Shown piece by piece: positions 3,073-14,205 of a stretch of DNA of 64,000 nt; position 1 is the first letter of the stretch; each line of letters begins with the position of its first letter. The stretch covers positions 1,302,001 to 1,366,000 of the forward strand of contig NZ_FOZD01000001.1 of the NCBI RefSeq assembly GCF_900113185.1. Direction: 5' to 3'. A program made the translations under genes and the position numbers. The notes below the pieces were generated by a model. The model did no database searches. It saw nothing but the letters and a program-made list of their open reading frames with translations, and was not told the DNA's origin. This DNA is from Agromyces sp. CF514 (GTDB lineage: Bacteria; Actinomycetota; Actinomycetes; Actinomycetales; Microbacteriaceae).

Positions 3073-3128
3073 TGTCGGAGCGTCTGCGCGCCGAGCCGAC
3101 CGCGTACCGTGATGCTCGGGGAGGGCCC

Positions 3129-3920
3129 ATGGACGGTGACACTGGTGCCGGCGCGGCGCTGAGCGGCCTGCGGGTCGATCGCGTGAGCGCGCACGTCCAC
3201 TTCGCGCACACCGAGCATGTGAACTGGGTCGTCTACTCGGGGCCCGACGGGGTCACGCTCGTCGACTCGGGCTACGTCGGCCAGCAGGGGCTGCTCGAAG
3301 CATCCCTCGCCCAGGTCGGCGTGAAGCCCGACGATGTCGACGTCGTGCTCATCACGCACGGGCACGCCGACCACCTCGGTGGGGCCGCCTGGCTCGCCGA
3401 GCACTTCGGCACGACGGTGCACGCTCACCCGCGCGAGCTCGCGAACGTGCATCGGGAGGTGTTCGAGCAGGTCGGAACCGGCCAGGTGCTGCGCAACGGC
3501 TGGCGGCCGGGCGTCGCCCCCTGGGCCTTGGCGATCGTGCCGTTGCTCGACGGGCGGGCCGACCTCGGGGTGCCGAGCGCGACGGAGCCCCCGGTGCGCG
3601 ACGGCCGCATCGACGTGCCCGGGCGGCCCCGGATGCGTCTCGTCGACGGGCACACGAGCGGGCACGCCGTGTTCGAGTTCGAGGGCGAAGGCGTGCTCGT
3701 CGTCGGCGATGCGTTCGTCACGGGGCACCGCACGTCGCCGTTGCAGGGGCCGCAGCTGCTGCCCTCGATGTTCCATCGCGATGCTGCACGGGTGGCGACG
3801 TCGCTCGACGGCATCGCCTCGTCCGAAGCGCGCGTCGTGCTGCCCGGGCACGGCGAGGCGTGGTTCGGCCCGGCGTATGCAGCGGTCGATGCGGCGGTCG
3901 ACGCCGGCTCCGCCTGGTGA
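3129..3920 (+). CDS. Metallo-beta-lactamase-fold hydrolase
   Basis: A 263-residue soluble enzyme of the metallo-beta-lactamase superfamily. The zinc motif THGHADH is complete (H77, H79, D81, H82). Later ligands are visible as DGHTSGHAVF, GDAF and the C-terminal LPGHGE. The N-terminal HFAHTEHVNWVVY segment is typical of the glyoxalase II/quorum-lactonase-like branch of environmental MBL hydrolases. It should hydrolyse an ester, lactone or thioester using one or two metal ions; the substrate cannot be told from sequence. ATG at 3129 follows ggggaggg, and the homologous region starts shortly after. Confidence 0.88.
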   Translation: MDGDTGAGAALSGLRVDRVSAHVHFAHTEHVNWVVYSGPDGVTLVDSGYVGQQGLLEASLAQVGVKPDDVDVVLITHGHADHLGGAAWLAEHFGTTVHAHPRELANVHREVFEQVGTGQVLRNGWRPGVAPWALAIVPLLDGRADLGVPSATEPPVRDGRIDVPGRPRMRLVDGHTSGHAVFEFEGEGVLVVGDAFVTGHRTSPLQGPQLLPSMFHRDAARVATSLDGIASSEARVVLPGHGEAWFGPAYAAVDAAVDAGSAW

Positions 3921-5728: not shown

Positions 5729-6337
5729 GGGGCTCCTTCCGGAAGGGGCATGCGCCCGATTCGACTGTATCGGGCGGGATTTCTCAGGGTGGATCCGGAT
5801 GTCCCGCGTCATGATCCGGGGCATGCTGCATCTCTAGGGGTGAGGGCGGATGCCACCGCCCACGACCGAGAACAGGATCCACGCCATGACGACCCACCTG
5901 GAATACGTGACCGGGGCGCTCGGAGAGCGCACCGCGCTTCCGTGTGCCTGCGGGCGGGTCGCCGATCACCAGCGGCTGGGGTCTGCCGGGCTCGCCGCGG
6001 CATCCGCGGACCTGCCCCTCGGAGCCGGGCATGCGACCGGCCACCGTCGTCGCGCCGTCTCGCTGCGGCCCCTCACCGCTCGGGCCGCACGCGGGCGGCA
6101 CGCTGCCTGACGTCAGGCCGTGACCGACCGTCGCACGATGGGCTCGTCTGGGCGCATGCTCCATGAGCGGAGACCCCCCCCGGACTGGGGACATGTGGTG
6201 CAAATGAGCACGTCGTTACGCTTCGGACAGCGCGCACACGCGATGTGGGGCGCGGGCGCGCCGTCGGCCGTGCGAATCGCCGCGACCGGCAATGAGGTCG
6301 GGTAGCGCCCGGCCGTGGGCGCTGCTGGGGGTTCCCG
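5729..6337. other. Long intergenic stretch
   Basis: About 600 bases between the leftward CPBP gene and the rightward hydrolase gene. Only one weak candidate ORF (5886-6110) was found. Around 6165-6235 the composition is looser than in the genes, with a C8 run (about 6173-6180) and a T- and A-containing segment near 6205-6225. It probably holds the promoters for both flanking units. Confidence 0.5.
5886..6110 (+). CDS. Doubtful small ORF
   Basis: A 74-codon frame starting MTTHLEYVTGALGERTALP with a CACG motif and an Arg-rich C-terminus. Third positions are GC-rich, as in real genes here. However there is no clear ribosome site, no family similarity that I recognise, and the C-terminal half looks like random GC-rich translation. 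It is recorded because it is the only plausible coding frame in the surrounding 600 bases. Confidence 0.2.
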   Translation: MTTHLEYVTGALGERTALPCACGRVADHQRLGSAGLAAASADLPLGAGHATGHRRRAVSLRPLTARAARGRHAA

Positions 6338-7891
6338 ATGGGAGAGCACGTCATCCGTACCACCGGTGACGGTGAGTTGAAGAGCCCGACCGTGGAGGGC
6401 GTCGACCAGATCGTGCAGGACGCCGTGGCGGCCGGAAGCATCGTGATCTACTTCCACGGCGGGCTCGTGACCGAGAAGTCCGGCGTCGAGATCGCCGAAC
6501 GCCTCGGAAAGGAGTTCACGGGCGCGGGCGCGTATCCGATCCATATCGTCTGGCAGTCGGGGTGGTACGAGGTCATCCGCAACAACCTCTTCGAGATCGC
6601 GAAAGAGGAGTTGTTCGACCGACTGCTCAAGCGAGTCGTGTCGTGGGCCGTCGGCAAGGCGCGCGTGACCGACGGGGGTCGCGGCGTCGCCCTTCCGCCA
6701 GAGCAGTCCGTTCAGGACGAGCTCGCGAGACGCAAGCGCAAGGACGACCCCGAAGCGGGCGCCGAACCGTTCGCGGACGAACCCACCGAGCACGCCGCCC
6801 CGCTGACCGCGGAGGACGAGGACGCCTTCGTCCGCGACATCCAGACCGATCAGGATCTCAACCGGGCGCTCGCGGGAGCCCTCGCCGCCAGCAACGTCGC
6901 GATGAACCAGGAGGGGTCGCGTGGGGTGCCCGACGTGCCGCCGGAGCCGACCCGGATGGACCCTGCGGTGCTCGCCGAGATCGGCGAGGGCATCGGCCCC
7001 GACGGAGCCCGCGGAGGACTCAGCATCGTCGCGTTCGCGAAGAAGGCGTTCCAGGTGCTCACCGCCGTCGTCGGGCGATTCCGCGACGGCACCGACAGCG
7101 GCATGTACCCGACCGTCGTCGACGAGCTGCTTCGCGCGTTCTACATCGGCGACGCGGGCGGAGCGCTCTGGGATGCGATGAAGCAGGAGACCGCGGATAC
7201 GTTCGCCGCCGATGGAAACCGCGGCGGGCGGCTGCTCCTCGATGCGCTCTCGCGCGAGCTGCCGGCCGACGGCAGCGTCAAGATCACGCTCATCGGCCAC
7301 TCCACCGGTGCCGTGTTCATCGACAACCTCCTGCGCGAGGTCGTGCGCCGCCGCGAGAAGGGCGACTCGCCGCTGCCCGAGAAGACGAGGTTCCAGGTGC
7401 TCCTCCTGGCGCCCGCCTCGACGACCACGCACTTCGCCGAGACGCTCGCCATCGCGCGTCCGCTCATCGATCGCTTCCGAGTGTTCACGATGGATGACGA
7501 GCACGAACGGGCCGATCGGGTCGCCGGCGCGGTCTATCCCCGATCGCTGCTCTACCTCGTGTCGGGTGCGCTCGAGCGCGACTCGAAGGAAGCTTCGGCC
7601 ATGGTGCCCGTGCTCGGCATGGCGCGCTACTTCGACTCGAAGTCGGCAGGGCTGAAGAAACTGGTCGGCTCGCCGCTCGGCACGTCCGCCAAGCTGAAGG
7701 CGGTCGGCGAATACCTCGCGCAGCAGGACTTCGTCGTGCTCTCGCCGAGCGCCGACGGCGCGAAGGACGGATTCCGCACCGGCGCGACGAGCCACGGCTC
7801 GTTCGACAACGAGCCGCTCGTGGTCGCGAGCGTCGTCCACCTCATCCGCGACTACGCCGAGGATCCGGGCGAACCGGAACGGCGACCGTGA
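6338..7891 (+). CDS. Putative alpha/beta hydrolase of the caspase cluster
   Basis: A 517-residue soluble protein. Two features suggest an alpha/beta-hydrolase fold: an oxyanion-type YFHGG motif around residues 39-44, and a nucleophile elbow GHSTG with Ser near residue 322 inside a hydrophobic strand-turn-helix (KITLIGHSTGAVFID). The middle (about residues 110-220) is an acidic, low-complexity insert. LLLAPAST and later segments could supply further strands; the acid and histidine cannot be assigned with certainty. Its stop overlaps the GTG start of the caspase-like gene by four bases, so the two are almost certainly co-translated. It may act as a lipase or esterase effector or as a processing partner; this is inference. 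Confidence 0.7.
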   Translation: MGEHVIRTTGDGELKSPTVEGVDQIVQDAVAAGSIVIYFHGGLVTEKSGVEIAERLGKEFTGAGAYPIHIVWQSGWYEVIRNNLFEIAKEELFDRLLKRVVSWAVGKARVTDGGRGVALPPEQSVQDELARRKRKDDPEAGAEPFADEPTEHAAPLTAEDEDAFVRDIQTDQDLNRALAGALAASNVAMNQEGSRGVPDVPPEPTRMDPAVLAEIGEGIGPDGARGGLSIVAFAKKAFQVLTAVVGRFRDGTDSGMYPTVVDELLRAFYIGDAGGALWDAMKQETADTFAADGNRGGRLLLDALSRELPADGSVKITLIGHSTGAVFIDNLLREVVRRREKGDSPLPEKTRFQVLLLAPASTTTHFAETLAIARPLIDRFRVFTMDDEHERADRVAGAVYPRSLLYLVSGALERDSKEASAMVPVLGMARYFDSKSAGLKKLVGSPLGTSAKLKAVGEYLAQQDFVVLSPSADGAKDGFRTGATSHGSFDNEPLVVASVVHLIRDYAEDPGEPERRP

Positions 7892-8997
7892 ACCTCTACC
7901 ACTACGCCGTCGTCGTCGGCATCAACCGGTACCCGGGCGGGTACAAGTTGCTGCGCGGGCCGGTGGCGGATGCCCGGGCGTTCGCCACCTGGCTGACCGG
8001 TTCGAACAAGGGGGGCCTGCCCCGGGAGAACGTGTCGCTCATGCTGACGCCGCGCCCGTACCCGCGAAAGCTCGACGAGGCGAGCCCGCTGAAGGGACGG
8101 ATCGACTCCGCGCTCTGGAGTGCCCACAAGTCCCTGCGCGCCCGACTCGACGCGGCGCCCGAGGACCAGCGCAGTGCGCTCCGCGACCAGTCGCGGATCT
8201 ACCTCTTCGTCGCCGGCCATGGCGTCATGCCGCAAGGCGGCGACTCGGCCCTGCTCGATGCCGAGGCGGAACCCGGCCGGCAGACGAACCTCGGCCTCGA
8301 CAAGTACCTCGACTGGTTCCGACGCGACGGGCAGTTCGCCGAGGTCTGCATCCTCGCCGACTGCTGCCGCGGCTACGACCTGCTGGCCGAGCCGGGTGCG
8401 CCCGGCTTCGCACGGGCCGCCAGGGCGCCGGGCGACGTGAGCTACCTCTTCGCGCTCTCGACGAGCGCCGGCCAGCTCGCCTTCGAGGACAAGGCGACCG
8501 ACGCCGAGCAGTACCGCGGCCACTTCAGCCGTGCGCTGATGCAGGGGCTCGCCGGCGAGGCGACGGATCCCGACACCGGGGAGCTCACCGGCGATCGACT
8601 CATCGCCTACGCCCGGCGGATCGTCGCCGAACGGACGAAGGCACTCGGACCCGGCCGCGAGCAATCAGTGCCGCCGCCGCACACGAGCGGCACGCTCACC
8701 TTCGGCCCGACCAGGAAGGCCGCGGGCGCCGCTCGAGACGGAGAGCGGACCCCGCCGCCCGGACGCACCAAGCGGAAGGTCAGGATCGTCTTCCCCGACG
8801 GATTCACCGGTCGCGTCGAACTCGTCGCACCCGACGCATCGACCGAACTCTGGGACACCGCCGACGGCCCCCTGACGAGGTGGCTCTACGACGGCACCTG
8901 GTACGTGCAGCACGAGGGCACGGACATGGACACGAAGGGCTTCGCCGCCGACGGGCTCTTCACCGTCTCGGGGGAGGACTGCGATGTCCAGCTCTGA
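7888..8997 (+). CDS. Caspase-like (peptidase C14) protein
   Basis: A 369-residue protein with an N-terminal caspase/metacaspase domain (about residues 1-225). The opening YHYAVVVGINRYPG, the RGPVADARAFATWL helix, the catalytic His in VAGHG (H111) and the catalytic Cys in LADCCRGYD (C159/C160) are all visible. After a basic linker, the C-terminal 90 residues (from about 280) form a beta-rich module (VRIVFPDGFTGRVELVAP). It is expected to be a cytosolic cysteine protease, probably kept inactive until triggered. It starts with GTG overlapping the hydrolase stop, and its own 3' end overlaps the next gene by 14 bases. Similar bacterial proteins act in stress-triggered cell death or antiphage defence; that role here is inferred. 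Confidence 0.82.
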   Translation: MNLYHYAVVVGINRYPGGYKLLRGPVADARAFATWLTGSNKGGLPRENVSLMLTPRPYPRKLDEASPLKGRIDSALWSAHKSLRARLDAAPEDQRSALRDQSRIYLFVAGHGVMPQGGDSALLDAEAEPGRQTNLGLDKYLDWFRRDGQFAEVCILADCCRGYDLLAEPGAPGFARAARAPGDVSYLFALSTSAGQLAFEDKATDAEQYRGHFSRALMQGLAGEATDPDTGELTGDRLIAYARRIVAERTKALGPGREQSVPPPHTSGTLTFGPTRKAAGAARDGERTPPPGRTKRKVRIVFPDGFTGRVELVAPDASTELWDTADGPLTRWLYDGTWYVQHEGTDMDTKGFAADGLFTVSGEDCDVQL

Positions 8998-10576
8998 GAT
9001 CGGAACGGGGGCAGACGCCGGGGCCGGCGCCGGCGCCGCGGCGGGTGCCGCGGCGGGTGCCGGGGCAGGCTCCGCCCGCTCCGGGCGCCTGCGCATCACG
9101 TCGCCCGGCGCGAACCTGCAGGTGCTCGACGCCTACCTTCGACCTGTCGGCGTGCGCGGTGTGGGCTCGGTCGCCTCCGAACTCGCGGCCGGCGCCTACA
9201 CCGTGATCGGCGATCTCGAGGGGGTCAGCGTCTCGCGGGACGTACTCGTCCGGCCGGGCGGCGACCTCGAGGTGACGCTGGAGATCCCGCTGACGTCTGC
9301 GGCGCCCGTGCTGCGCCTGCCGACCTCCGACGAGCACGACGACCTGATCGCACGGGAGCTGACGCAGGCGCCCCCGCTGCCGGGCAAGTCCGTGCTCGTC
9401 ATCGTTCAGCGCGGCATCATCGGCGAGTCGATGGCGTCCTTCACGCAGTTGCCCTCGGTACGCGACTGGTCGGGCGGGACCGTCGAGCTGCCGAAACCGG
9501 TGGGGCAGGGCGAGCCGCTCAGGGCGGTGGGGTGGCGCCTCGACCTCGAGCCCGGCGCCTACCGCCTCCGGTGGGCCAGGAACGGGCGGCGCCCGGTCGA
9601 GCACGCCGTCTGGGCGGCGGCCGACCGCAAGATCGCGTTCTTCGTCCCGCAGGGCATCGCCGGCCCCGAGGTGGGACGGATGTCGATGCATCTCCTCGGC
9701 GCCAGGTCGAGTTACGACAGCGCGGGCCACCCGGCCGAGCTGGTCGAGCTCGGCCTGTCCCTCCTGCGCAGCGGGGTGAGGCCGGCCTCGCTCGACGAGG
9801 CGTCCGCGATGCTGAACAAGGGCCTGCCCCCGACCGCCCGGCTCTTCGCCGCGCTCGCCTTCGCCGCGAACCGCGACGTGCCGATCAGCCGGCGCACCGC
9901 GACCAAGCTGGCGTCGGCGATTCGGCAACTGCACGACGAGTTCGGGGACATGCCCGACCTCCTCGCGATCGGCCGGACCATCCCCGAGGCCGGCGTGACC
10001 GGGCTGATCGAGGAGCCGCCGATGCTGGGTGCGAGCATGGACCTGCTGCTCGCCGCCGACCGGGTGGACCCCGACGTGATCCCGCCGGGCTCGCTCGTCG
10101 AGTCGATCGTCGGCGAGCGGTTCGAGTCCCGGCCGTGGCTGCTCTGGAGGCCGGTCGCGATCGACGAGGCCGTCGAAGCCCGCGCCGCCGCCCGCCGCCT
10201 CCTGCGCTCGGGCTCACCGGGCGGTCGGTCGGCCGGCCGGTCGGTCGGCCTCACGGGCTCGAGGCGCGCCGACATCCTCGCCGCCACCGGGGGCGCAGTT
10301 GTGCGCCGCATGGAGGGGGCCGTCGGCGGCCTCGACGCGATGCACCTCCTCGACCTGCACGGCACCGGGCCGTCGATGCCGAACGCCCGTGAACCGGTGT
10401 CGGCGAGCGTGCTGCAGCGCGTCAAGAGCGTCGTCGAGTCCGTCGCGCCAGTCGTCGAGCTCTCCGAGGCGGATGCCGCGCACGCCCTCGGCGCCGACGA
10501 GATCGCCCTCCGGCTCTCGCTGCCCGAGGCCCTCGTGCAGCGCACGCTCGACGACCTGTACGGCGGAGGTCGGTGA
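8984..10576 (+). CDS. Third protein of the caspase cluster, unknown function
   Basis: 530 residues, unrecognised. It opens with an Ala/Gly repeat tail (about residues 8-31), followed by two beta-rich modules: RLRITSPGANLQVLDAY to about residue 100, and a second to about residue 230 with LDLEPGAYRLRWARNGR. These resemble surface or ligand-binding beta sandwiches. Residues 250-400 are helical, with repeated LAAADR and LAFAANRD patterns. The last 40 residues (ALGADEIALRLSLPEALVQ) look like a helix-turn-helix-like bundle. The gene begins 14 bases inside the caspase gene, so it is translationally coupled. It could be a sensor, scaffold or protease substrate for the caspase. Confidence 0.7.
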   Translation: MSSSEIGTGADAGAGAGAAAGAAAGAGAGSARSGRLRITSPGANLQVLDAYLRPVGVRGVGSVASELAAGAYTVIGDLEGVSVSRDVLVRPGGDLEVTLEIPLTSAAPVLRLPTSDEHDDLIARELTQAPPLPGKSVLVIVQRGIIGESMASFTQLPSVRDWSGGTVELPKPVGQGEPLRAVGWRLDLEPGAYRLRWARNGRRPVEHAVWAAADRKIAFFVPQGIAGPEVGRMSMHLLGARSSYDSAGHPAELVELGLSLLRSGVRPASLDEASAMLNKGLPPTARLFAALAFAANRDVPISRRTATKLASAIRQLHDEFGDMPDLLAIGRTIPEAGVTGLIEEPPMLGASMDLLLAADRVDPDVIPPGSLVESIVGERFESRPWLLWRPVAIDEAVEARAAARRLLRSGSPGGRSAGRSVGLTGSRRADILAATGGAVVRRMEGAVGGLDAMHLLDLHGTGPSMPNAREPVSASVLQRVKSVVESVAPVVELSEADAAHALGADEIALRLSLPEALVQRTLDDLYGGGR

Positions 10577-10625
10577 TGCCGGCAGGCCTCTTGCGGGCCG
10601 CACCTCCGCCCGGTCGGGCGATCCG

Positions 10626-11123
10626 CTACCAGCCGAACGAGCCGGGCCCGCCCTTGAACGGGCCGACGACGTTCGACGTGATCCAGCCGCCGTAGAAGCC
10701 GCCGGGCTGCGGCTCGACCGGCTCGCCGTCGACCGTGCAGGCCTCGACGAGGCCCGCGTAGACGGCGATGCGCCCGGAGAGCTCCTCGAACCCGGGCGAC
10801 GGCGACGGATACTCCCACGCGGCGTGCACCGCTCGATGCGGGCCGGCGACGAGGTCGTAGTACCGGGCCGACCCCTTGAACTCGCAGAACGACGAGCCGG
10901 CCGCCGGCACGACCGTGCCGGGCACGAAGTCGTCGATCAGCAGGTAGTACACGGGCGGATGACTCGTCTCGAGCACGCGCAGCACGTCACGCGTGTCGAC
11001 GATCGGCGCCCCGCCGAGGGCGATCGAGACCCGTGCGTCGACGGCCTCGACGCGAGGCGGGCGCGGGTAGTCCCACACGGACTCCTGGCCCGGAACGGTC
11101 GGCAGCGGCGTGGGGTGCGTCAT
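10626..11123 (-). CDS. DUF427 domain protein
   Basis: A 165-residue protein of the DUF427 family. Recognisable pieces are WDYPRPPRVE at the N-terminus, ETSHPPVYYLLIDD, FCEFKGSARYYDL and AAWEYPSPSPGFEEL, with the closing Trp-Gly region. DUF427 proteins are small beta-rich proteins of unknown biochemical role, common in actinobacteria. It sits in reverse orientation between the caspase operon and the STAND ATPase, so it is not co-transcribed with them. ATG at 11123 has TATCGT 7 bases upstream and no ribosome site, which argues for a leaderless transcript. Confidence 0.85.
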   Translation of the reverse strand: MTHPTPLPTVPGQESVWDYPRPPRVEAVDARVSIALGGAPIVDTRDVLRVLETSHPPVYYLLIDDFVPGTVVPAAGSSFCEFKGSARYYDLVAGPHRAVHAAWEYPSPSPGFEELSGRIAVYAGLVEACTVDGEPVEPQPGGFYGGWITSNVVGPFKGGPGSFGW

Positions 11124-11130
11124 GCGCGTC

Positions 11131-11136
11131 ACGATA
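11131..11136 (-). promoter_or_regulatory. Putative leaderless -10 box (TATCGT)
   Basis: On the minus strand TATCGT stands 7 bases before the DUF427 start codon at 11123. Confidence 0.5.
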
Positions 11137-11226
11137 CGCCGATCACCCGGCACGGACACCGGGTTGACGGAGCCGCCGCCCTCCGCAACGGGCCTTCGGT
11201 AGTCTGCCTGCATCGAAGGGGGTCGA

Positions 11227-14205
11227 ATGCCGAGGGAAGCCGTCGCCGTTCCGCTGATCGACATCGCGTCGACCGTGCTCTCCGGGCTCGTGCCCGCACC
11301 GATCCTGAAGATCGCCGAGGTCGTGGCCAAGGCCGCGGTCGACGGGCACAAACCCCCGGTCGCACGAACGGCGATCGCGGGCGCCAGACGCGAGCTCAGG
11401 CGATGGATCGCCGTCGAGGGCATCCCGAACGACGCGCTCGACACCGGAGCGCAGTTGGCGATCGACGCGCTCGCCGAATGGGGGCCGCTCACCGCCGAAC
11501 GGGTCGTCCGGTTCCGATCCGACCCCGCGGCGATCGCCGCCGACATCCTGACCCTGGCGGAGCGGGCGCAGCCGTCGGAGGGCGAGCGGGCGGTGTGCCG
11601 GCAGATCGTCGAGCGGGTGATCGCCGCGGTGCTCGCCGACGCCGACGCCCGAGCCGAACTGGGATTCGACCTGCAGGTCGGCACCGCCGTCGCCGTCGAG
11701 ACGCTGGGCGCGAAGATCGACCTGCTGCTCGACGGCGACGCCCCGAGCGGGCTCGAACTCGATCGGCTGCGCACGCGGTCGCGCGCAGGACTCGACCGCA
11801 TGGCCAACGCCCAGTTCGGCCGCCACGAGCTCGTCGGCTGGGATGCCTCTGAGGAGCCGGCACGCACGCTCGACACCTGGCGCTGGTCCGAGCAGGTCGA
11901 CCGCGCTCTCCGCTCGATCATCGCGGGATCGAACGGCGTCTTCGACGTCGAGCCGCTGCGCCGGATCCTCGCGCAGGCCACGATGCCGTTCGAGAGCCTG
12001 CGGGCGCGGCTCATCGACGCGAGGCTCCCCGACCTGCTCTCACGAGCCGCCGCAGCGCGGCGTGCGGATGCCGACGCCATCGATCCCGACGTGCTCACGT
12101 CGCTGCATTGGCTCGTCGAGCAGTGCGCGGCCCCCGAGTACCGCATCGTGCTGCCCGTCGTCGGGGGCTGGGGAACCGGCAAGACGACGGTGTCGCGACG
12201 CACGGCCGACGAGCTGTTCACCCGTGGCCGCTTCGTGATCGTGGTCGCGCCGGTGGCCCGGGCGGGCTTCGAGGACGAGCTCGCACGAGCCGCATCGGCC
12301 GTGCTCGATCGCCCGATCACCTCCGCCGCGCAGCTCGCGACGGAACTCGGCGAACTCGACCGGCATGCCGTCGTCGTCGTGGACGACGCCCACGAGTGGG
12401 GCGTCGAGGCCGGCTTCGCCGCCGCCCTGCAGCACGCGATCAGCGCGTCGACCGTCGGCGACCGCGTGCGGTGGGTGGTCTCGACGAGCGTCGAGCACTT
12501 CGACACGGTGCACGATCGCCGCAATCCCAGGTTCTGGGCCGAGTACGGCACCGAGGGGCGGCCAGACACCTGGCTCGACCTCGATCGCACGAACGTGGCC
12601 CAGCAGCTCGGGCGCGACATCCTCGTGACCGCGGCCCCCGTCGGCGACCGGCCGTCGATCAACGCGTACTTCGGCCTGCCCGGCGAACAGCGCGACGGCG
12701 GGTGGGAGCTGCTCTGCCAGCCGTTGCCCGCGTGGATCCAGGTCGAGATGAGCCGGCACCGGGGGCTGGGCTTCGGGCTCACCGAGGGGGAGTTCGCCGC
12801 CGAGTACTGGGACCTCGTGACCGAGCGCCTCGGCCCGACGCCGTGGATGGTGCGGTCGGCCGCGCAGGTGCTCGCGCTCCTCGACGAGCGGTTCGCGGCG
12901 ACCTGCGGCGAGCCGATCCCGGCGGCGGACCTCGAGCATCGGTTCGTCGGCGCACCCGAGACCGAGGAGCGGGTCGGGGTGTTCAGCCGCATCATCGGTG
13001 CGCTCACCGGCGCCCGGATCCTGCGCCGCGACGGCGAGCGACTGCAGCCGGGAGGGGACGTGCTGTGGGCCTCCCGACTCCTCGGCGCCGGCTGGGACGG
13101 CGACGTCTCGTCTTCGGCGGGCGTCATCGCGGCGATGGCACCGTGGCGCGCCGACGGCGACCGGAGCGTGGCGCGACTGCGGCAGGCCGTGCTGCGCGAA
13201 TGGCTCGTGCGGCTGGACTCCGACGGCGCCGTGGACTGGGACCTCGGCGAGGTGCTCGACGCGTTGTGGGACCGCAAGGGCGGCAACCCCGTGCTCTGGG
13301 GCGCCGCGCCGCGACTCTCCGTCGAGACGCAGCGCCGCCTCGTGATCCGCGCGAAGCGGTCGGTCGCGGCGATCGCCGGGGGCCACGACGTCTACCTGTT
13401 CCTCCGCTGGATGCTCGTCGCCCCCGACGGGGTCTGGAACCCCGGCGTCGCGGTCAGGATCGCGTGCGCCGTCGCGACGCAGGTCGCGGCATCCGGCCTC
13501 TCGCAGTACCTGGTCTCGGTGGTCGACCGCTACGCGCACGAGCTGGAGCTCTCGGATGTCGAGTCGGTGACGAGACTGCTCGTGCAGCTCGACGGTGCGG
13601 CGTCCGCGACCGGGTTCGCCGGGGAGTTCGTCGGCGTGTTCATGCGGGCCGCGACCTGGGTGCAGGGCGAGACCCTCGCGGTCGCCGCGCTGCGGCTGCT
13701 CGACCAGGGCGGCAACAGGAGCGGGAGCGCAGAGCCGAATCGGGCCGCCCCGGGGGAGACGCGGACCGCACCCCGCGAGTCGGCCTTCGCGCTGCTGGTG
13801 GTCGACGCCGTCGCGTCCTCGGTGATGAGCGACGACGTCGTCGACGGATACGAGACGCTCGTCGCCGCGCGCTGGTTCGGTTCGCGCGGGGACCTTCGAC
13901 CTGCCCAGCGCACAACGCGGAACGCCGCGCACCGGGCGCTCGGGCACGCCTACGGCAGCGCTCGTCACGCACCGCAGGTCGTCGAGATCGTCGATCGGCT
14001 GGTCGACGGCACCGACCGGACGCGACTCGAATCGGCGCTCTTCGTCGTGCGGCACACCCGGACGACCGGCGGCCTCGCCCGGGTGAGCGTCGACGAGGAC
14101 TTCCATCCCGCACTCCGCGTGATCAGTCGCCGGCGGGGCGAGCTCCCGCCCGCCCTCGTCGAGCGCTGGGTGCTGCCGCTCCTGGAAGCGAACGGCATCG
14201 ACTGA
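11227..14205 (+). CDS. STAND-type P-loop ATPase
   Basis: A 992-residue protein. Residues 1-170 are helical and resemble N-terminal helical domains of actinobacterial NACHT-like ATPases (CRQIVERVIAAVLADADARA). A P-loop GGWGTGKTT (Lys about 319) and Walker B AVVVVDDAHEW (Asp about 386-387) define the ATPase core, followed by a sensor-like WVVSTSVEHF segment. The last 450 residues are mostly helical, with several W-x-V and LL-x-L patterns suggesting degenerate repeats for ligand sensing. STAND ATPases are signal-triggered oligomerising switches in regulation, cell death and phage defence. ATG at 11227 follows gaaggggg, with TAGTCT near 11199 as a possible -10. Functional partnership with the upstream caspase genes is inferred from proximity. 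Confidence 0.78.
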   Translation: MPREAVAVPLIDIASTVLSGLVPAPILKIAEVVAKAAVDGHKPPVARTAIAGARRELRRWIAVEGIPNDALDTGAQLAIDALAEWGPLTAERVVRFRSDPAAIAADILTLAERAQPSEGERAVCRQIVERVIAAVLADADARAELGFDLQVGTAVAVETLGAKIDLLLDGDAPSGLELDRLRTRSRAGLDRMANAQFGRHELVGWDASEEPARTLDTWRWSEQVDRALRSIIAGSNGVFDVEPLRRILAQATMPFESLRARLIDARLPDLLSRAAAARRADADAIDPDVLTSLHWLVEQCAAPEYRIVLPVVGGWGTGKTTVSRRTADELFTRGRFVIVVAPVARAGFEDELARAASAVLDRPITSAAQLATELGELDRHAVVVVDDAHEWGVEAGFAAALQHAISASTVGDRVRWVVSTSVEHFDTVHDRRNPRFWAEYGTEGRPDTWLDLDRTNVAQQLGRDILVTAAPVGDRPSINAYFGLPGEQRDGGWELLCQPLPAWIQVEMSRHRGLGFGLTEGEFAAEYWDLVTERLGPTPWMVRSAAQVLALLDERFAATCGEPIPAADLEHRFVGAPETEERVGVFSRIIGALTGARILRRDGERLQPGGDVLWASRLLGAGWDGDVSSSAGVIAAMAPWRADGDRSVARLRQAVLREWLVRLDSDGAVDWDLGEVLDALWDRKGGNPVLWGAAPRLSVETQRRLVIRAKRSVAAIAGGHDVYLFLRWMLVAPDGVWNPGVAVRIACAVATQVAASGLSQYLVSVVDRYAHELELSDVESVTRLLVQLDGAASATGFAGEFVGVFMRAATWVQGETLAVAALRLLDQGGNRSGSAEPNRAAPGETRTAPRESAFALLVVDAVASSVMSDDVVDGYETLVAARWFGSRGDLRPAQRTTRNAAHRALGHAYGSARHAPQVVEIVDRLVDGTDRTRLESALFVVRHTRTTGGLARVSVDEDFHPALRVISRRRGELPPALVERWVLPLLEANGID

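Follow-up and report, generated by a model that had tools for sequence, protein, structure and literature searches.

Introduction

Two described systems lie closest to the locus studied here. In Canu, a three-gene system (CanABC) from Klebsiella aerogenes, the CanAB caspase complex activates a gated enzyme, CanC (Tuck et al. 2025, PMC12799240). In the MoxR-vWA-VMAP systems, according to Kaur et al. 2020 (PMC7159879), a caspase domain stands constantly beside an alpha/beta-hydrolase gene.

The same pairing is found in the window, by which we mean the whole stretch of 64,000 nucleotides analysed here (G000:C1:1302001-1366000; GC content 66-76%), taken from the 4.3 Mb genome G000. The window encodes an alpha/beta-hydrolase, a caspase and a 530-residue protein, denoted the third protein, and the three genes together are referred to as the trio. 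A preliminary description of this DNA had considered the locus a candidate undescribed system, which does not hold for the pairing of caspase and hydrolase, known since 2020 from MoxR-vWA-VMAP (PMC7159879). It may hold for other parts of the locus, as the three-gene unit, the third-protein family and the lid of the hydrolase were not found described in a limited search of the open-licence literature. Work of Burroughs and Aravind from 2020 is said to be the source of pYEATS and other proteolytic systems, and may describe part of the trio.

Results

Gene layout of the locus

The hydrolase and caspase genes overlap by four bases (GTGA), and the caspase and third genes by 14 bases. These overlaps, the coordinates of the open reading frames (ORFs) and the GHSTG hydrolase were all as given in the preliminary description. 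The features of the locus are as follows.

6338-7891, plus strand: alpha/beta-hydrolase, 517 aa; conserved S322, D387 and H486; HGGL motif at residues 40-43
6563-7258, plus strand: helical insert of the hydrolase (proposed lid), residues 76-307; much shorter in short-form relatives
6680-6685, plus strand: proposed caspase site R115-G116 in the hydrolase; R/K in 87/88
7010-7015, plus strand: proposed caspase site R225-G226 in the hydrolase; R/K in 87/88
7301-7303, plus strand: codon of the hydrolase nucleophile S322 in GHSTG; S in 87/88
7888-8997, plus strand: caspase (Peptidase_C14), 369 aa; GTG start; H111 and C160; acidic D28, D158 and E200
8749-8994, plus strand: C-terminal Ig-like module of the caspase (predicted), residues 288-369; homologous to Ig1 of the third protein
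8984-8997, plus strand: 14 bases shared by the end of the caspase gene and the start of the third gene; same overlap in 34/68 loci
8984-10576, plus strand: third protein, 530 aa; proposed regulator or scaffold of the caspase
9080-9301, plus strand: Ig-like module 1 (Ig1) of the third protein, from the AlphaFold2 model and hhalign
9371-9661, plus strand: Ig-like module 2 (Ig2) of the third protein, from the AlphaFold2 model and the hhalign comparison of Ig1 with Ig2
9716-10159, plus strand: helical domain of the third protein; carries PPML and PWLLW motifs
10403-10561, plus strand: C-terminal helical module of the third protein; weakly HTH-like in a few relatives, with extra domains after the core in others
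10626-11120, strand opposite to the trio: inverted gene, labelled DUF427 in the preliminary description
11227-14205: STAND-type P-loop protein; K319 in GGWGTGKTT

The three genes form a conserved unit

Genome contigs of GTDB were scanned with the hydrolase alignment, which gave 241 relatives, and the counts below describe the best 80 of these 241. The best 80 are spread over 12 phyla, namely Pseudomonadota (32), Bacteroidota (16), Actinomycetota (14), Chloroflexota (6), Armatimonadota (3), Verrucomicrobiota (2), Planctomycetota (2) and five further phyla with one each. A caspase is adjacent to or two genes from the hydrolase in 78 of the 80 loci, and in 77 its ORF lies directly downstream, including broken or contig-end-cut ones (L027, L052); the order caspase-third-hydrolase occurs once, at L042. 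There is no caspase at L023, and L089 stops at the contig edge. By HMM, the third family is present in 77 of the 80 loci, as 66 separate ORFs (two in pieces), ten fusions behind the caspase and one remnant (L027); it is lacking at L023 and, where the contig ends, at L052 and L089. The proposal of the preliminary description that caspase, hydrolase and 530-residue protein make up a unit was borne out by this co-occurrence, with all three genes present in 77 of the best 80 loci, one of these being the broken remnant.

The third-family HMM had been trained on most of the sequences later counted with it; in a five-fold hold-out, the HMMs recovered 69 of 69 third proteins and none of the reversed sequences. 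When the HMM was built from 56 non-actinobacterial sequences, it recognised the window's third protein at E 7.4e-44 and none of the reversed or shuffled sequences. Caspase and third protein are joined in one ORF at ten of the 80 loci (eight distinct sequences), and these ten fusions, all outside the training set, match the non-actinobacterial model at E 2e-33 to 1.5e-129.

The spacing of the genes is also conserved. Hydrolase and caspase are separated by -20 to +99 bases in 70 of 77 loci; six of the seven outlying distances are large overlaps, which we take for over-long ORF starts, and the seventh, L095, has a short caspase ORF. Considering that the same gene order recurs in other phyla and that the exact 14-base overlap of caspase and third gene recurs in 34 of 68 loci (ATG, GTG and TTG starts counted), the association of the trio is beyond chance. 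Distances between loci are correlated for each pair of the three proteins, with r of 0.82, 0.74 and 0.74 (57 of 69 loci after thinning), the largest r among 1000 permutations being 0.18, and shared host ancestry could be a part of the source of this co-variation. That the three-gene operon is a conserved unit is as good as certain.

Closer to the window, a genome of the same genus (G009) carries the trio in the same order, with identities of 65%, 66% and 55% to the window, and in a tree the window's hydrolase groups with those of Actinomycetota. Hydrolase relatives of about 30% identity adjoin caspases on rhizobial plasmids. Single-sequence searches with the third protein gave no relatives in plasmids or phages, and four pattern matches in viral contigs, none of them a relative. 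Run on 398 genomes of the family, the same search recovered only the window copy, apart from two weak matches in the Ala-rich N-terminus, and missed the copy of G009. A hydrolase search in 396 genomes of the phylum found no full-length copy besides that of the window, as a kind of search that overlooks distant copies.

Several loci are irregular. In the broken copy at L027 (L027:2417-2965), the remnant of caspase and third gene is one short ORF, and the third gene is broken into two overlapping frames at L044 and into two ORFs at L050. A second caspase-like ORF lies near the trio on the opposite strand at L063, L079, L098 and L101 (E 5e-7 to 3e-11). At L023 (L023:9989-11539, Herbihabitans), the hydrolase has no neighbouring caspase or third gene where the contig runs on, and it is the only such orphan.

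The caspase has acidic residues in the order of a MALT1 pocket

The caspase matched Pfam Peptidase_C14 at E 2.9e-8 (34.1 bits against a cut-off of 21.4). No other member of the trio exceeds a Pfam cut-off, and nothing else in the window's genome matches Peptidase_C14. H111 is found in 82 of 83 aligned caspases (with one gap), C160 in 83 and C159 in 78. With a domain above the gathering score and the His-Cys dyad that the preliminary description had reported as intact, the protein belongs to Peptidase_C14. The caspase profile had no match among PDB sequences at E 0.01.

In MALT1, the P1-Arg pocket comprises Asp365 in alpha1, Asp462 in L4 and Glu500 in L5 (PMC4357240). Three acidic residues of the trio caspase, D28 (82/83), D158 (83/83) and E200 (83/83), follow the order of these three, a correspondence by order and position and not by structure. 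D158 stands two residues before the catalytic C160, just as Asp462 stands two residues before Cys464, which we take to be the catalytic cysteine of MALT1. Because D158 is placed as Asp462 and the putative S1 residues are conserved, the caspase is predicted to cut after Arg or Lys.

In hhalign, the C-terminal module of the caspase and Ig1 of the third protein come out as homologues (96%, E 1.7e-9; 71 against 68 sequences). The ten caspase-third fusions were left out of this comparison, and the best of 20 shuffled-column controls reached a probability of 0.4%. From its homology to the modelled Ig1, the module is predicted to have an Ig-like fold.

The hydrolase carries a helical insert with two mixed R/K positions

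An AlphaFold2 model of the hydrolase (69 sequences; pLDDT 91, pTM 0.92) has an alpha/beta core that is split by a helical insert, residues 76-307, between the strand 66-72 and the nucleophile strand 315-321. Conservation was read from 88 rows, comprising the window, G009, six rhizobial sequences and the 80 best of the 241 relatives, and the triad is present as S322 in 87, D387 in 83 and H486 in all 88. The nucleophile elbow, the triad and the fold model assign the protein to the alpha/beta-hydrolases, with the triad Asp placed by position alone. Among 69 long-form hydrolases, DUF900 of Pfam matches 20 and Abhydrolase_6 matches 13. Foldseek gave no whole-length relative for the hydrolase, the best match (E 0.11) being an unrelated fold and the best alpha/beta-hydrolases lying at E 0.7-1, and as such the label 'lipase' reflects a weak likeness.

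The length of the insert separates two forms. The spacing from HGG to GHS is 256-307 residues in all 88 long forms and 117-144 residues in 14 of 15 short-form loci (13 distinct genes), with L107 having no such motif pair. In the tblastn alignment of one short form (G004), residues 29-80 and 246-450 aligned with almost nothing between, and the short forms lack the stretch that holds both R/K sites. At least three of them carry a C1 (papain-type) peptidase, at L009 by Pfam and at L020 and L021 by annotation. Short-form hydrolases lie within long ORFs at L008-L010, L012, L013, L020, L021 and L104-L113.

Within the insert of the long forms, column 115 has R in 62, K in 25 and P in one of 88 sequences, and column 225 has R in 64, K in 23 and L in one. 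These two are the only mixed R/K columns of the hydrolase (R and K together at least 75% in all), and at both the next residue is small (G, A, S or T) in all 88 sequences. Other conserved basic columns are nearly pure, with R247 in 88, R266 in 82 and K282 in 84, and the two-site picture was unchanged after thinning to 62 hydrolases. In the model, R115 and R225 are in coil, in loops of the insert at the ends of its variable middle, and the ten-residue blocks around them have mean pLDDT of 82 and 75, which stands for fair confidence and not for disorder, a point that counts against the mechanism proposed below. The only hydrolase without R or K at column 225 is that of L023, a single case with an ambiguous alignment and an R-A pair a few residues upstream. 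Cut sites were also sought within the caspase and the third protein, and neither has a mixed R/K column; its lack in the third family says little, since that family is very variable.

Cleavage by the caspase after Arg or Lys is the expected specificity and agrees with the two R/K sites of the hydrolase; the S1-like residues and the hydrolase sites are two separate lines that point, at the level of sequence, toward Arg/Lys cleavage. A mixed R/K position could serve otherwise, for example by binding an acidic partner. The direction of regulation could also be the reverse, with the hydrolase active or signal-making first and a caspase cut of the insert ending, tuning or re-targeting that activity. 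The R/K site data fit activation and inactivation alike, and the short forms, some fused to another cysteine peptidase, dispense with the two-site stretch, as this reversal might have it. However, both sites fall inside the insertion, where cuts would spare the catalytic core, a pattern more in keeping with gating than with destruction, and the Canu and Hachiman precedents are activations (PMC12799240). We consider the reversed direction unlikely and prefer activation of the hydrolase.

The third protein is variable and has two predicted Ig-like modules

The third protein was modelled by AlphaFold2 from 55 sequences (mean pLDDT 85, pTM 0.83). Strands at 33-98 and 136-239 form two Ig-like modules, followed by a helical domain (249-376), a poorly modelled stretch near 412-465 and C-terminal helices (474-526). 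Ig1 and Ig2 resemble each other (hhalign 94.6%, E 7e-8). Conservation is much lower in the third family than in the caspase and the hydrolase. The profile of the window's third protein matched those of two rhizobial third-gene groups at E 1.2e-10 and 8.6e-9; between these two groups the match was only weak (E 0.012, probability 3.5%).

Foldseek gave partial matches to PDB entries, mostly of the tandem-Ig type and with no whole-length relative among the 50 matches listed, and further partial matches to phage structural proteins. The sequence profile of the family matches the C-terminal domain of gingipain R2 (E 4e-5). The resemblance concerns Ig1 (window 8984-9301), and gingipain R2 is an Arg-specific cysteine protease. 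Por_Secre_tail is matched by one of 55 family members.

The window's own third protein had no Pfam match at E 0.01, and neither it nor the hydrolase was matched by PADLOC or NCBIfam. Among 68 third proteins, pYEATS is found on four, HTH_24 is weakly matched by five, and six PADLOC models match one member each, the best being 'nacht' at E 3.9e-11. Single members have additions behind the core, namely trypsin with NucA (L016), trypsin with PLD (L014), Cpn60 (L043) and thermolysin M4 (L086). The chaperonin addition is a near-complete C-terminal domain of Cpn60 type in Bradyrhizobium cytisi (L043:5309-8815, E 1e-77), and the thermolysin M4 domain is that of Streptomyces pseudovenezuelae (L086:12341-14368). 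The toxic-type domains on some third proteins count for reading the trio as a conflict system.

The trio might belong to or derive from the MoxR-vWA-VMAP or EACC1 systems, with the third protein in the place of VMAP as a divergent substitute. Kaur et al. 2020 report an alpha/beta-hydrolase beside every caspase-bearing VMAP (PMC7159879), and the window's caspase weakly matches the NCBIfam model caspase_w_EACC1 (NF047832), at 36.6 bits against a cut-off of 140. Against such an origin, VMAP-C is absent from the families matched at E 0.01 by the 68 third proteins, that of the window included, and has no Pfam match in its genome, G000. VMAP-C is over the cut-off in two of 149 actinobacterial genomes (three at E 0.001), and around those two genes there is no hydrolase, caspase or third protein of the trio families, so that they offer no comparison with VMAP-linked hydrolases. 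Neither the hydrolase nor the third protein of the window matches EACC1, and the one match among 69 hydrolases (E 8e-4) is taken as chance. We regard this origin as improbable.

The STAND gene is a neighbour of an accessory trio

The preliminary description had placed a STAND ATPase with intact Walker motifs in the system. K319 does lie in GGWGTGKTT, and the protein has AAA-type Pfam matches under the Pfam cut-off (best E 1.4e-4, at residues 306-393). Its membership did not stand: among 60 genomes of the genus the gene occurs only in the window's own, being absent from the trio carrier G009, and phmmer found none in the other trio loci searched. In G351, a genome without the trio, the left-hand synteny ends at window position 6111 and the right-hand synteny begins at 10623. 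About 0.56 kb takes the place of the trio there, with an ORF that by eye is VOC-like, and the gap equivalent to the STAND site is filled by genes that, likewise by eye, resemble a cluster for sugar transport and metabolism. The genome G014 has the inverted gene about 0.3 kb from a methyltransferase-like gene (labels by eye), with no STAND gene; because their order is changed, G014 is not a clean empty site. Based on G009, G351 and G014, trio and STAND gene are separate accessory pieces, and the STAND and inverted genes are neighbours, not members of the trio. A caspase-hydrolase-STAND system with the STAND protein as sensor, for which only adjacency in the window speaks, is very improbable.

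A gene of the metallo-beta-lactamase (MBL) fold at 3126-3920 was considered as a gated nuclease and set aside: its best PADLOC match is LmuA at E 4.7e-4, and it is retained in G351. We take it as a resident gene. An MBL-fold gene of 61% identity lies near the trio of G009 (L006:16235-17008), about 3.2 kb from it against about 2.4 kb in the window, and given these two genes and the copy in G351, the two trios may share one variable neighbourhood.

The trio itself is accessory. A full-length hydrolase is found in two of 60 genomes of the genus, ten others matching only the second half of the model, which is the short form, and the content at the same site differs in G351. A role outside defence would make the trio a stress- or development-linked proteolytic pathway, for example one of programmed death or turnover, and carriers among the best 80 of 241 loci include Streptomyces and Kitasatospora, which are multicellular. 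Patchy presence, two instances of copies carried on plasmids next to IS21 elements, the different content in G351 and the swapped nuclease and protease domains on third proteins argue against it, and we give such a role little probability. The trio is likely a proteolytically triggered conflict or cell-death system, which may plausibly have an antiphage role.

Discussion

Proposed mechanism

The mechanism that we favour, at about even chances, is activation of the hydrolase through caspase cuts at R115 and R225, as part of an abortive defence. It is drawn from the R/K columns in the insert loops and the putative MALT1-like acidic S1 set, after the gating of the Canu pro-nuclease. The caspase, with its C-terminal Ig-like module, would cut after Arg or Lys and would pair with the third protein, which would serve it as regulator, sensor or scaffold. 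The hydrolase would be a pro-enzyme with a helical lid between the oxyanion-hole motif and the nucleophile, and the loop at each end of the lid's variable middle would offer one R/K-(G/A/S/T) site, R115-G116 and R225-G226. When triggered, probably by phage infection, the third protein may release or cluster the caspase, which would clip the lid, and the freed hydrolase may then damage the cell, most likely at membrane lipids, by which the invader would be stopped. On this mechanism, R115 and R225 are the predicted cut sites, and S322 and C160 would carry the activities.

A broader reading, which we hold tentatively and as somewhat less probable than the mechanism itself, is that of a pan-bacterial immune pathway. 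In it, a MALT1-like caspase held by an Ig partner would free a lid-gated pro-lipase through a double cut at R/K-G sites, and the Ig partner would be a plug-in board for extra effectors. The proposed pro-lipase would be likened to caspase-activated gasdermin as well as to gated pro-nucleases. The operon is found across 12 phyla among the best 80 of 241 loci, and for two of its three proteins no specific family model was found. If the mechanism is true, hydrolases join nucleases as effectors gated by proteases, and there is a reason for caspases and alpha/beta-hydrolases travelling together.

Comparison with known systems

The trio resembles Canu in having three genes and a caspase with a C-terminal Ig-like module, here predicted through its homology to the modelled Ig1. 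In Canu, the partner complexes with the caspase, and insertions that contain predicted cut sites probably block the third enzyme (PMC12799240). The effectors differ, that of Canu being an MBL-fold pro-nuclease with conserved glycines at its predicted cut sites, whereas that of the trio is an alpha/beta-hydrolase with R/K sites, and no MBL gene lies inside the trio. As to Avs/STAND-type systems, the trio genes have no STAND ATPase as a conserved companion.

MoxR-vWA-VMAP shares the pairing of caspase and hydrolase, but in Kaur et al. 2020 the caspase is mostly fused to VMAP (PMC7159879), and VMAP-C is missing from the trio's third family and from the window's genome. The alphaproteobacterial trypsin-NucA system (System 3 of the same study) has a counterpart in the trypsin and NucA domains at the C-terminus of one third protein (L016); the pair is the core of System 3, whereas in the trio it is one optional addition behind a conserved core.

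With the MALT1 paracaspase and the orthocaspases of clan CD, the trio caspase shares the His-Cys dyad, the order of acidic residues and a predicted Ig-like module after the peptidase domain (PMC4357240, PMC12799240). It differs from MALT1 in having no visible death domain, in lacking a PDB sequence match at E 0.01, and in sitting in a bacterial operon. If the proposed mechanism is true, the trio would add a paracaspase-with-Ig immune module that is related in logic to MALT1 signalling.
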